Shown: positions 1,331 through 6,693 of the stretch, piece by piece | Layout of the letters: each line of letters begins with the position of its first letter | Numbering within the stretch: position 1 is the first letter of the stretch | NCBI RefSeq assembly: GCF_008041945.1 | Contig: NZ_VKAD01000001.1 | Coordinates: forward strand, 1,488,001-1,552,000 | Length of the DNA: 64,000 nt | Direction: 5' to 3' | Source: Reinekea thalattae | GTDB taxonomy: Bacteria; Pseudomonadota; Gammaproteobacteria; Pseudomonadales; Natronospirillaceae | The notes under the pieces: generated by a model | The model's database searches: none | The model's input: the letters and a program-made list of their open reading frames with translations, nothing else | Told to the model about the DNA's origin: nothing | Position numbers and translations under genes: made by a program

Positions 1331-1681
1331 TCATTCTGCATTTTTAATAATAGGCTTTAGTCGATAATCCGTACGAACTTCGTTTTTAAATTGATACTCT
1401 TTATTACCGAAGTTGTATTCAAACACCAGTTCTTTTAACCGCGGATAAGCCAAACAATTATCTGGTTGATGTTTTTCTAAAAAAATAGAATCACCCTTTA
1501 CCAAAAGATTAAAATTCTGCTCACTAGTGCAGCCTTTATCACTTACAGATACAGTTAATTTATCTTCGCTGAGTATCGGATTATAAAGTACTACATCTTC
1601 ATTAGTAGCGCTGGAATTTAACGCACAGCTAGAAAGAATAATTAGCAATAATAAAAAAATAGGCTTTAACAAATAGTGCAT
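1331..1681 (-). CDS. small lipoprotein of unknown function
   Basis: The N-terminus is a lipoprotein signal: a hydrophobic stretch ending in LSSC, with lipidation predicted on that Cys. The mature part is about 100 residues with two cysteines in short motifs, DKGCTSEQNF and PDNCLAYP, that may form a disulfide. The ATG at 1681 is preferred over an upstream TTG at 1702 because AAGGA sits 8 nt before it and the signal peptide then starts at MHYLLK. The gene begins 31 nt after the stop of the rearranged serine protease and shares its terminator, so the two are probably co-transcribed. An inhibitor, chaperone or anchor role for that protease is possible but purely contextual. Confidence 0.65.
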   Translation of the reverse strand: MHYLLKPIFLLLLIILSSCALNSSATNEDVVLYNPILSEDKLTVSVSDKGCTSEQNFNLLVKGDSIFLEKHQPDNCLAYPRLKELVFEYNFGNKEYQFKNEVRTDYRLKPIIKNAE

Positions 1682-1712
1682 AATTCTATCCTTTGAAAGC
1701 AACTGGCATTAA

Positions 1713-2702
1713 TCAATCGCTCAAGCCATGACCGATGACCATGACACTAATATCCGAGCCTGGATTTTGCTCGGCATCTTCCGCTAATTCAGCAAACAAA
1801 TCCGTTGAGGGTAGTGATAAAGATTCATTCGAAGGCCAAGGCGAAGGACCTAATTGAATCAGTGCGATGTCATTTTCCAAATCATCTACATCACCACGCC
1901 AATCGTCATGAACCGTGATGTCTGAACCAGTAACCGTATGAATCTCTAAATAACTGCCGATGTATAAAACAAATCCTGTTGCATCTTCACTCTCTGAATC
2001 AGCACTCCAAGTACAATCAACCCCAAATTCATCATAAGTACATACTTCGTATGCCATTTCGTCAGAATAATTACCAACCAAAAGATAAATTTGCTCTTCA
2101 GATGAAAGATCATCAACACAATGGGCTGCGGTTAGCACCCAGCCATCGCCTAGATAAGAGCCGCCGCAAAACGGATAGTAATAACCTGTATAGTCAGGAT
2201 ACTTCGTCATTAGGGTAACAAAGTATTCATGATTATCTGTTTCGGCATCAATGCCACCAATAATGGTTGGCTGAACAATAGAGTCGGAGTGCTCCATTGA
2301 GGTTGCAGTAATATCATAGTTAGTCGTTGCTTCTATCCACCCGACAAATTCGTAGACATCTGCAAAGCCACCGTATTTGTAATAGGTATATTCGCAATTA
2401 TTAATTGTCCAACTGGTAACGCCTAAAAGAATGTTGTCGGTACCATCGTCATAAAACAATGGGCCACCGCTGTCGCCCGAGCAAACACCTACTTCAGAAT
2501 CGCCAGCACAGACCATAGAGCCAGAATCGAATGAATCACTATACACACTCTCACACTGGGTATCTGTTTGCGGGGTAATGTAGAGCTCTTGAAGAATAGC
2601 ATTCTGAGTATATTCATCGCTTCCATCCCCACCATTAGAAGAGCTAGTACAAGACACACACAAGAGGACTAATAACTGCAGACCTATTCGAAAATACACC
2701 AT
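1713..2702 (-). CDS. circularly permuted trypsin-fold (S1) serine protease, lipoprotein
   Basis: A 329-residue protein with a lipoprotein-like signal (LLCVSC, Cys18) and a Ser/Gly-rich linker. The C-terminal half of a chymotrypsin-fold protease then comes first, at residues 35-125: Cys50/Cys65, GDSGGP with Ser78, and the TSW and final-helix regions (VYEFVGWIE). A linker of about 20 residues follows. The N-terminal half comes second, at 147-329: IIGG at 147-150, CGGSYLGDGWVLTAAHC with His194, and ENDIAL with Asp278, ending at VIGHGLSD. The full triad and the canonical cysteine pairs (179/195, 50/65, 74/103) are present. The position equivalent to trypsin Asp189 is Gly72, so Arg/Lys specificity is not expected. 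The frame is continuous from ATG to TGA. Probably periplasmic or outer-membrane anchored. The order of the halves is seen directly; activity is inferred. Confidence 0.85.
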   Translation of the reverse strand: MVYFRIGLQLLVLLCVSCTSSSNGGDGSDEYTQNAILQELYITPQTDTQCESVYSDSFDSGSMVCAGDSEVGVCSGDSGGPLFYDDGTDNILLGVTSWTINNCEYTYYKYGGFADVYEFVGWIEATTNYDITATSMEHSDSIVQPTIIGGIDAETDNHEYFVTLMTKYPDYTGYYYPFCGGSYLGDGWVLTAAHCVDDLSSEEQIYLLVGNYSDEMAYEVCTYDEFGVDCTWSADSESEDATGFVLYIGSYLEIHTVTGSDITVHDDWRGDVDDLENDIALIQLGPSPWPSNESLSLPSTDLFAELAEDAEQNPGSDISVMVIGHGLSD

Positions 2703-2793: not shown

Positions 2794-5700
2794 CTAGCCC
2801 AACCAAACCCGCGCATTACGGAACATACGTAACCAAGCGCCATCTTCTTGCCAGCCTTTCGGTTTGCTTGAATTAGTGACGGTACGGAACACTCGCTCTG
2901 GATGCGGCATCATGATGGTGATGCGGCCGTCGGGCGTGGTGAAACCATTCATACCCAATGGTGAACCATTTGGATTCTGCGGGTAATGCTCAGTAACTTT
3001 GCCGTAGTTATCGGTGTAACGCAGTGCCAATTGGCCGCTGTTTTCAGCCAGCTGTTGATGCGCTGAATCTTTAAATTCGGCTCGGCCTTCGCCGTGTGCA
3101 ACAGCAACCGGCATACGTGAACCAGCCATACCTGCTAACAGGATAGAAGGCGACTCGGTAATTTCTACCATGGCGGTACGGGCTTCAAACTGCTCGGAAT
3201 GGTTACGCACAAAGTGTGGCCATGCTTCGCTGCCATCAATAATAGAACGCAGATTAGAAATCATCTGGCAGCCATTACAAACACCTAACGCAAAGGTATT
3301 ACTGTCGGCAAAGAAACTTTGGAATTGATCTTTCACTGATTCATTAAACAGGATCGATTTTGCCCAGCCTTCCCCTGCGCCTAAAACGTCGCCGTAAGAG
3401 AAGCCACCGCAAGCGGCAAGGCCATTAAACTGTTGCAGCTGAGTTCGACCTGCAATGAGGTCACTCATATGAACATCTACCGCATTAAAGCCAGCACGTT
3501 CAAAAGCAGCGGCCATTTCCATCTGACCATTAACACCCTGCTCACGCAAAATTGCGATGCTTGGACGAGCCCCCTTGTTAATAAAGGGCGCAGCGATATT
3601 CTCGTTTACATCGAAGCTTAACTCGGCATGCAAGCCGGGGTCGTTGGCGTCAAGCAATCGGTCGAACTCTTGCTCTGCGCATTCGGCATTATCACGCAGC
3701 GCCTGAATGCGATAACTGGTTTCGCTCCACATACGCAAAATATCAGTGCGCGGCTTAACATAAATTTCTTCGTCATCGGCGAGCACCCGAATAAAGTCAT
3801 CATCATTTAACTGACCAATCACGGCGACACAATCTTCTAATCCAGCGGCAGAAAACTGCTGCAACACCTGTTCGGTGTCGGCTTGCGCCACTTGAATCAC
3901 GGCACCTAATTCTTCACTGAATAGTGCTGCCAGTAGGTTGTCGTCGTTTAGGCGATCGGCATTCAGGTCGATACCCGTACGTCCAGCAAAGGCCATTTCA
4001 ACAAGGGTAGTAAACAAACCGCCGTCAGAGCGGTCGTGATAAGCCAACAGTTTTTCATCAGTAAGTAAGCCCTGTATGACTGCCCAAAATGCTTTTAAGT
4101 CTTCGGCGTCGTCAACATCCGGTGCAACATCACCAACCTTGCGATACACCTGAGCCAGCGCACTACCACCGAGCCGGTTTTGGCCTCGACCTAGGTCGAT
4201 TAGAATTAAATCGCTTGCGGCTTGGGTGGTTTGCAATTGAGGCGTAACGGTTTTGCGTACATCCAACACCGGTGCGGCACCCGAAATAATTAAGCTCAAC
4301 GGCGCTGTTACAGCTTTGGTTTTACCATCTTCTTGCCAAGTGGTTTTCATCGACATCGAATCTTTACCCACTGGAATGGTTAAACCCAGTGCTGGACAAA
4401 GTTCTAAACCAACCGCTTGCACGGTATCGTAAAGTGCTTCATCTTCACCCGGGTGACCGGCTGCGGCCATCCAGTTAGCCGATAAACGTACTTTTTTAAT
4501 ATCGCCAATTTCGGTTGAGGCTAAGTTGGTCAGCGTTTCTGCAACCGCTAATCGGCCAGAGGCGGCAGGGTTAATCAGCGCCACTGGTGTGCGCTCGCCC
4601 ATCGCCATCGACTCACCCTGATAGCCTTGATAATCCGCCGTAGTGACTGCGGCATCGGCAACAGGAATTTGCCACGGGCCAACCATTTGGTCGCGCGCAA
4701 TCATGCCGGTAATTGAACGGTCACCAATGGTGATCAAAAAGCTTTTACTGGCAACGGAAGGCAAATGCATTACGCGCTCAACAGCGTCGTTAATATCAAT
4801 ACCTTTAGTACTAAAGCTGTCTAGTTGACGCTCAACACGTTCAAAAGAGCGCGACATTTTAGGCGGCTTGCCAAGTAAAATATCGAGCGGCATATCAACT
4901 GCGTTATTATCGAAATGACGATCCGACACTGTAAGGTTTGGCTCTTGTGTCGCCTTACCAATAATCGCATAAGGGCAACGTTCACGTTCACAGAAGGCTT
5001 TAAACTGAGCCAGTTTTTCATCGGTTACGGCCAGCACATAACGCTCCTGCGATTCATTACACCAAACCGCGAGCGGCGACATGCCCGGCTCATCATTTGG
5101 AATATCGCGAAGTTCAAATTGGCCGCCACGACCACCGTCGGCAACCAATTCTGGAAACGCATTCGATAAACCACCGGCACCAACATCGTGAATAAAGCTG
5201 ATCGGGTTTTCTTTACCAAGTGACCAACAACGGTCGATCACTTCTTGGCAGCGACGCTCCATTTCTGGGTTGCCGCGCTGTACCGAGGCGAAGTCTAAAT
5301 CTTCATTGCCTTCGGCGCTGTCGACCGAAGAAGCCGCGCCACCGCCCAAGCCAATTTGCATAGCAGGGCCACCCAATACAATCAGGTTGGCACCAACAGG
5401 AATTGCATCCCACGCCTTTTCGATGTGCTCTTCTTTAATGTTGCCATAACCGCCAGCAATCATAATTGGCTTGTGATAACCACGAACATCGTAGCCATCA
5501 ACACCCGGCACAGACTGTTCAAATGTACGGAAGTAACCGGTTAAATTTGGACGGCCAAATTCATTATTGAAAGCTGCGCCACCTAAAGGGCCGTCGATCA
5601 TAATATCCAACGCGCTAACAATACGCGCTGGCTTGCCATAGCAACTTTCCCACGGCTGTTCAAAACCTGGAATGCGCAAGTCCGAAACGGTAAAGCCTGT

Positions 5701-6693
5701 TAGACCAGCTTTCGGTTTACCACCAGAACCGGTTGCGCCTTCATCACGAATTTCACCACCCGAACCGGTTGCCGCACCAGCAAAAGGTGCAATCGCGGTT
5801 GGGTGATTATGGGTTTCGACTTTAAATAAAATATGAATATTTTCATTGTGATAAGCGTATTGATGATCAACACCCGGATAAAAACGCTCACCCTGATAAC
5901 CAGCAAAAACGGCGGCATTATCTTTATAAGCAGACAACACGCCTTCGCTGTTTTCGTTATAGGTATTTTTGATCATTTTAAATAACGACCAAGGCGATTG
6001 CTCACCATCGATTGTCCAGTCGGCATTAAAAATTTTGTGACGGCAATGCTCTGAGTTGGCTTGCGCAAACATCATTAACTCAACATCGGTTGGGTTACGT
6101 TTTAATTCGGTATAAGCCTTTAATAGATAATCGATTTCGTCATCAGCCAACGCCAAACCTAATTTGATATTGGCGGAACTTAACGCATCTCGACCGCCAG
6201 CTAATAGATCGACTTCGGTCAAGGCTTCGGGGTCATGTTCACCAAATAATTGCTCCGCTTGCGGCGCTTGTAAGTAAACCGATTCAGTCATACGGTCGTA
6301 CAATGCAGCACTGGCAATTTTGAGTTCAGTCTCACTCAATGCCTGTTCAGCTTGAATCCAATAACGGATGCCACGCTCAATACGACGCACAGAATCTAAT
6401 GCACTGTTATGAGCAATATCTGTCGCTTTTGTTGCCCAAGGTGAAATGGTACCAACCCGAGGTGTCACCCATAACGAGGCAGTGCTATATTCTTCGACAG
6501 CAACGCTTGGGCCATAATGCAACAATTGGCTTAACACCTGATGCTGCTTATCGGATAAGCTGTCCGTCAGGTCAACAAAGTGAACGAATTCTGCGTATAC
6601 TTGGGTGATGGATGGAACAAGCGTTTGCAGCTCTTTTGTGAGCCGTTGGCGGCGAAACTGCGATAGAGCGGGGTTACCTCGAAGCGTGAGCAT
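2794..6693 (-). CDS. purL: phosphoribosylformylglycinamidine synthase (FGAM synthase)
   Basis: The large single-chain PurL of Gammaproteobacteria, 1299 residues, the usual length. It converts FGAR, glutamine and ATP to FGAM in purine synthesis. Visible parts: an N-terminal domain starting [14 protein letters not shown]; two AIR-synthase-like halves with the glycine-rich [18 protein letters not shown] region and [11 protein letters not shown]; and a C-terminal class-I glutaminase with the nucleophile in LGVCNGCQM and the His/Glu of PHPERVFR. It is monocistronic and divergent from mltF, an arrangement also found in E. coli. A convincing promoter lies at 6740-6769. I see no clear PurR box. Confidence 0.98.

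Follow-up and report, generated by a model that had tools for sequence, protein, structure and literature searches.

A circularly permuted trypsin-fold (S1) protease gene in Reinekea thalattae and its permuted orthologue in Reinekea marinisedimentorum

The window, a stretch of 64,000 nucleotides of the R. thalattae genome, carries on its minus strand a gene at 2794..6693, which we take to be purL, followed by an S1 protease gene and by the gene of a small probable lipoprotein. The protease gene starts with ATG and consists of one uninterrupted frame. An earlier note on this DNA had given its coordinates and its 329 codons correctly and had omitted the strand, which is minus. The features of the locus are as follows:

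1331..1702, minus strand: small Cys-containing probable lipoprotein, downstream of the S1 gene (frame and tblastn relatives)
1713..2702, minus strand: circularly permuted S1 (trypsin-fold) protease gene, 329 aa (open frame, PF00089 and rotated profile match)
1716..2264, minus strand: His/Asp half, aa 147-329 (chymotrypsin 16-145), starting with IIGG and ending with VIGHGLSD (profiles and model 148-329)
1869..1871, minus strand: Asp278, taken as catalytic Asp102, by motif position (NDIAL, motif start aa 277)
2121..2123, minus strand: His194, taken as catalytic His57, by motif position (TAAHC, motif start aa 191)
2265..2330, minus strand: new linker, aa 125-146, from the old C-terminus to the old N-terminus, ending with QPT, a putative activation site (pLDDT below 50 at aa 133-148)
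2331..2615, minus strand: Ser half, aa 30-124 (chymotrypsin about 150-245), in front (PF00089 134-220 and model alignment)
2469..2471, minus strand: Ser78, taken as catalytic Ser195, by motif position (GDSGGP, motif start aa 76)
2649..2651, minus strand: Cys18, putative lipidated residue (Ser17-Cys18 conserved in the permuted orthologue)
2652..2702, minus strand: N-terminal hydrophobic signal, aa 1-17, probable lipoprotein signal with CVSC (aa 1-22 hydrophobic)
2794..6693, minus strand: presumed purL, upstream neighbour, marking the ancestral S1 locus

The window protein matched PF00089 over the cut-off, as expected for homology to S1 proteases of clan PA over the whole trypsin domain. The match fell into two stretches of swapped order, so the claim that the Ser half precedes the His/Asp half holds: aa 30-123 correspond to profile positions 134-220, and positions 1-55 are matched by a later stretch starting at IIGG. 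As separate whole-genome matches the two stretches reached E values of 8.7e-14 and 2.2e-8, which, being independent, exclude chance. A reference profile of 291 positions was derived from the S1 domains of six Reinekea proteases with normal order. The window protein covered positions 197-290 and then 1-188 of this profile with no overlap, and after its rearrangement to normal order by script it covered 1-193 and then 197-290. The permuted protein of R. marinisedimentorum, rearranged in the same way, gave one unbroken match (1-290). Such a rotated, near-complete and overlap-free coverage indicates that the trypsin domain is complete and unduplicated, merely rotated. Both segments are homologous to the normal-order protein and the old termini are joined, as is characteristic of a circular permutant. 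The standard linear order of catalytic residues in S1 proteases of clan PA is His, Asp, Ser. Because the order in the window protein is Ser78, His194, Asp278, it is filed as an S1-derived circular permutant and not as a standard S1 protease. The new termini lie between GHG (presumably equivalent to GWG at chymotrypsin positions 140-142) and, around residue 155, the LQE strand, that is, in the autolysis-loop region.

All three catalytic residues of the window protein were found within their motifs (TAAHC, NDIAL and GDSGGP), and we take Ser78, His194 and Asp278 to be Ser195, His57 and Asp102 in chymotrypsin numbering. The IIGG motif stands mid-chain, at aa 147. Despite an overall identity of 50%, the catalytic Ser, His and Asp as well as GDSGGP, TAAHC and IIGG are identical between the permuted proteins of R. 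thalattae and R. marinisedimentorum, and Asp194 is also intact in both. Cysteines occupy positions 15, 18, 50, 65, 74, 103, 179, 195, 221 and 230 of the window protein. Eight of these belong to the mature protein (50, 65, 74, 103, 179, 195, 221 and 230), four per half, and all eight have counterparts in both the permuted and the normal-order protein of R. marinisedimentorum. Where the earlier note counted three disulphide pairs, each inside one half, four are possible, with 221/230 as the extra one. Whichever pairs these residues may form, none need cross the halves. Since its disulphides are not obliged to do so, the family appears to have been ready for permutation. Concerning the lipoprotein signal proposed for the N-terminus, a hydrophobic signal and a conserved Ser-Cys pair are present, but a canonical lipobox is not: the motif reads CVSC in the window protein and MYSC in the permuted protein of R. 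marinisedimentorum. As this lipobox is not a textbook one, the window protein is no more than probably a lipoprotein.

Seven Reinekea genomes were searched, and the permuted orthologue, 50% identical, was found in R. marinisedimentorum DSM 15388, which contradicts the idea, named in the earlier note as a possible refutation, that there are no permuted relatives. The R. marinisedimentorum locus (L042) comprises, on one strand, purL, a normal-order S1 gene (371 aa), 83 nt, the permuted S1 gene (312 aa) and the small lipoprotein gene, and the window locus comprises purL, the permuted S1 gene and the small lipoprotein gene. The five other Reinekea genomes have a single normal-order S1 gene adjoining the same small lipoprotein gene. 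A purL homologue is located upstream of S1 in R. marinisedimentorum and at three of these five loci (L007, L008 and L009), where a further small gene stands between the two; at L010 and L011, genes other than purL lie upstream of S1 within the stretch examined. No second S1 of this kind was found in the R. thalattae genome (2.94 Mb, 98.5% complete). Two further PF00089 matches in this genome (profile 27-215 and 25-216, in frames of 468 and 369 aa) presumably represent DegP/DegS-like proteins.

Trees of 15 rows were calculated for the His half, the Ser half and both halves joined. The permuted pair formed a clade with the His half (100/99) and with the joined halves (97/94), and the normal copy of R. 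marinisedimentorum was the next sister (99/98 and 100/99, respectively). In the Ser-half tree the permuted pair was not united; here, the window protein grouped with the normal copy of R. marinisedimentorum (82/43), and its branch length was 3.79 versus 0.82 for its relative. The Ser half of the window protein may thus be under weaker constraint. Between the window gene and its permuted orthologue, 38, 31 and 64% of the first, second and third codon positions differ over 308 codons (41, 37 and 64% in the Ser half; 31, 24 and 64% in the His half). This pattern looks like that of genes under purifying selection, although silent sites are near saturation, and the Ser half appears less constrained. 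A stretch of 80 nt, 81% identical, is common to the permuted and normal copies of R. marinisedimentorum and hints at a later exchange between the two.

The permuted genes of both species probably have a single origin. The simplest history would be a tandem duplication in the common ancestor with the permutation arising at the junction between the copies: an in-frame fusion would have linked the Ser half of one copy with the propeptide and His/Asp half of its neighbour, both outer halves would have disappeared, and a new signal with Cys would have been added in front. R. marinisedimentorum would have kept both kinds of gene and R. thalattae the permuted one only. Inspection of the short intergenic stretches beside the gene revealed no remnants of the lost halves.

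The search for further permuted S1 proteases yielded 179 frame rows, including 18 single-half rows and 116 distinct frames with both halves; up to 30 loci per search were examined, with the order of the halves read by script for these loci and by eye from the match rows. Swapped order was found in two of the 116 frames, those of R. thalattae and R. marinisedimentorum. No further permuted S1 was revealed by a protein search across the order (390 genomes, 63 with a match) or by profile searches across the family (22 genomes, 20 with a match), the class (369 genomes, 37 with a match) and the phylum (349 genomes, 25 with a match at E of 1e-5 or below); these genome sets overlap and all belong to one phylum, and many of the matches cover one half, from which the order is not readable. 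A first scan of genome contigs gave no match. A second one with two Ser-half patterns gave 29 loci, 21 of them with both halves in one frame and one swapped (L042). Among plasmids, 23 records matched, none covering 80% of the query. One of the plasmid matches, a single piece (39-169) in Rhizobium, appeared promising, and the two of the 23 records that were then examined both had normal order. Among the 60 listed of 497 and of 531 matches to solved structures, none had one stretch across both halves, and the order was normal in all three chains in which it was followed residue by residue. Among the open-access papers listed (in one search, 30 of 262), none was found to describe an S1 protease that is naturally permuted. 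S1 proteases are known, as is circular permutation after duplication; their combination seems to be new.

Structure models of both permuted proteins were generated with AlphaFold (pTM 0.78 for the window protein and 0.77 for that of R. marinisedimentorum), and of the five models in each run only two had a pLDDT above 70. The linker, some 20 residues long, is disordered in both proteins; in the window model, pLDDT is below 50 at aa 133-148. Residues 33-128 of the window model superimpose on chymotrypsin C chain 151-243 with an rmsd of 1.6 over 91 residues, and residues 148-329 align to chymotrypsin residues 17-145. Both halves of this model match their counterparts in the chymotrypsin family, including chains of autolysed enzymes (2jet_C, 8gch_G and 1aks_A); for the permuted protein of R. 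marinisedimentorum the His half matches, among the best 50 matches listed. The best in-order Foldseek matches covering one half had an rmsd of about 3 Å, and those over 130-230 columns of about 5-13 Å, with TM values of at most 0.30 by query length and no alignment spanning both halves together. Such low in-order scores are what a rotated order would give; they do not by themselves prove the joint placement of the halves. S1 proteases of clan PA have a double beta-barrel fold with the triad between the barrels; the structural comparison with chymotrypsin that had been proposed placed each half of the window protein on its counterpart, through single-half alignments and none that joins the halves. 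The claim of the earlier note that the S1 fold is here naturally permuted, with its new ends in the autolysis-loop region, is supported by the sequence, the permuted orthologue, the tandem normal-order paralogue and the trees, and the two models agree with it.

S1 zymogens are activated by a cut before residue 16, which frees Ile16 to pair with Asp194. For a comparison of the residue preceding this site with residue 189, 55 of the 179 frame rows with a match to a half were dropped since one half, the motif or the beginning of the His half was missing from them; after merging of duplicates, 78 frames were left. Arg or Lys precedes IxxG in 54 of 65 frames with Asp189 versus two of 13 without it (p 5e-6), and in 27 of 31 versus two of six after greedy clustering at 40% identity (n = 37, p 0.013), with the pattern having been spotted before testing and the window protein being among the tested rows. 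The residue before IIGG and residue 189 are Thr and Gly in the window protein, and Arg and Asp in the permuted protein of R. marinisedimentorum. Residue 216 of the window protein is Thr in place of Gly (189 and 216 are what we take to be the chymotrypsin numbers). Compared with the Arg/Asp189 of its relatives, the activation site (Thr-Ile) and the pocket (Gly189 and Thr216) of the window protein appear to have undergone a joint change. This would fit self-activation at the internal site with a new specificity. The principle of self-activation in a relative is illustrated by VesB, whose S221A variant seems to keep its propeptide (PMC6219818). In a group of other S1 frames (L143, L145, L147, L156, L158 and L168), IVNG or IING is preceded by Tyr, Phe or Met and residue 189 is Gly, Ser or Ala, which suggests self-activation with chymotrypsin-like specificity there.

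A C-terminal hydrophobic stretch with a basic end was detected by threshold in five of the six normal-order Reinekea copies and by eye in the sixth (L009), and is absent from both permuted proteins. It resembles GlyGly-CTERM, which is made up of a C-terminal Gly/Ser motif, a hydrophobic stretch and a basic end; however, none of the five Reinekea S1 sequences compared with the GlyGly-CTERM NCBIfam model (L011 was left out) reaches it, and the permuted proteins have no match to it. In VesB, GlyGly-CTERM serves surface attachment (PMC6219818), and R. blandensis has one listed GlyGly-CTERM protein (PMC3237569). The permutation would have shifted the membrane signal to the opposite end of the chain, still beside the Ser half. 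With its anchor carried by the Ser half, the enzyme would stay membrane-bound when activated; a normal-order S1 zymogen anchored at its N-terminus would shed the anchor together with the propeptide. In the relatives with normal order, the C-terminal hydrophobic sorting tail, which is also next to the Ser half, appears to be the answer to this difficulty.

The sorting pathway was considered in all seven Reinekea genomes, of which all seven contain the T2SS protein GspD over the cut-off. Rhombosortase is over the cut-off in five of them. In the window genome (G000:C1:848067-848525, 80.8 bits) and in that of R. marinisedimentorum (G005:C6:190990-191445, 80.9 bits), the only genomes with a permuted S1, the best match falls slightly short of the 84-bit cut-off, and the model also gives sub-cut-off matches in 14 of 14 control genomes. 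This coincidence may be meaningless, because the two genomes with permuted genes are also nearest kin by this protein. With GspD in seven of seven genomes and ambiguous rhombosortase scores, a loss or weakening of the sorting pathway is at most a possible cause of the permutation.

The small lipoprotein gene is located downstream of S1 in all seven Reinekea genomes, with relatives of the window copy detected by tblastn at the other six loci (at 5970-6311 in L042) and a conserved core VSV...GCT ... PD.C. No Pfam match was obtained for the window, L042, L007 and L010 copies, and no NCBIfam match for the window copy. Its role might be that of a partner, an inhibitor or a chaperone of the protease. 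A related genus has this small domain fused in frame behind S1 (L019 1444-3150, L020 1408-3111, L021 430-2223, L022 33-1307 and 1459-3135). These frames consist of S1, an Ig-like region (below the cut-off), a GlyGly-CTERM-like tail (at the cut-off in L020 only) and the small domain, with a lipobox-like motif (e.g., LSGC or LTAC) between the tail and the small domain. They are possibly polyproteins giving a protease and a lipoprotein.

Taken together, we consider it moderately probable that the window protein is an S1 permutant which arose via tandem duplication and is made as an N-lipid-anchored zymogen, cut before IIGG to become a two-chain enzyme. The protein would be exported and lipidated at Cys18, and both halves would fold together within one chain across the linker of about 20 residues. 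The cut before the internal IIGG would free Ile147, which would pair with Asp77 (Asp194) and switch the enzyme on. The product would be two chains held without a disulphide bond, with the anchor on the Ser half. The disordered linker would equally permit a fold as a single chain, and it is conceivable, though unlikely, that the permutant is active uncut, the cleavage being itself a conjecture, and that the internal IIGG is a leftover. Against this stand the integrity of IIGG and Asp194 in both permuted proteins at only 50% identity and the covariation of the residue before IIGG with residue 189. An assembly or binning error, for which one could cite that the window genome consists of five contigs of one strain, has next to no probability, as a separate, publicly available assembly, that of R. 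marinisedimentorum DSM 15388, has a permuted gene at the same locus.

Other readings concern the function of the permuted protein. The fold could have been kept and the protease function lost, at least in the window species, leaving a pseudo-enzyme with a binding or regulatory role. The fast Ser half of the window protein (branch 3.79; codon positions 41, 37 and 64% versus 31, 24 and 64%), the unusual pocket with Gly at 189 and Thr at 216, and the adjoining small lipoprotein without an assigned role would fit such a loss. Nevertheless, both species retain GDSGGP, TAAHC and the whole catalytic triad, and third codon positions differ most over the whole gene (64% versus 38% and 31%), and we regard this loss as improbable. 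Unequal exchange yields junction genes of this kind and only two species were found to have one, so the gene might be a functionless, decaying by-product of tandem duplication. This is highly improbable: frame and motifs are undamaged in both species at an identity of 50%, the gene has its own start and signal, and it has been retained as the sole S1 of its kind found in the 2.94-Mb window genome. Returning to the anchored two-chain enzyme, we tentatively suggest, with more doubt than confidence, that the permutation was selected since it allows an N-terminal lipid anchor on a zymogen-activated S1 protease. The resulting disulphide-free, two-chain "split trypsin" would be tethered by its Ser half, replacing the C-terminal sorting tail, and the activation site and pocket of the window protein would then have changed together.

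The trypsin fold, whose two barrels are thought to derive from an internal duplication, is among the most studied of enzymes, and a rotated version with an unrotated paralogue alongside offers a direct test of how a permutant originates and survives. It also tests whether the halves fold and activate in either order and how zymogen activation limits the position of a protease anchor.

In its homologous halves, triad, GDSGGP and IIGG the window protein is like the S1 proteases of the VesB type; VesB was at the top of the solved-structure profile search, and its structure 4lk4 was among the best matches for both models. It differs from VesB in having the Ser half before the His half and an N-terminal signal with Cys, whereas VesB has an Ig-like domain and a C-terminal sorting tail (PMC6219818), and the window protein has neither. 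Autolysed chymotrypsin and porcine trypsin (2cha, 8gch and 1aks) are broken in the same loop and their chains correspond to the halves of the window protein; there, the break results from proteolysis of a normal-order chain, whereas in the window the gene order itself is rotated. Concanavalin A is a known natural circular permutant. Another is swaposin (PMC3320104), and the origin of natural circular permutants has been ascribed to duplication, after which the units lose parts at their N- and C-termini (PMC1574323). None of the permutants of the swaposin or concanavalin A type that we found is an S1 protease. In contrast to these known permutants, the permuted S1 gene is still adjoined by its normal-order paralogue in R. 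marinisedimentorum.
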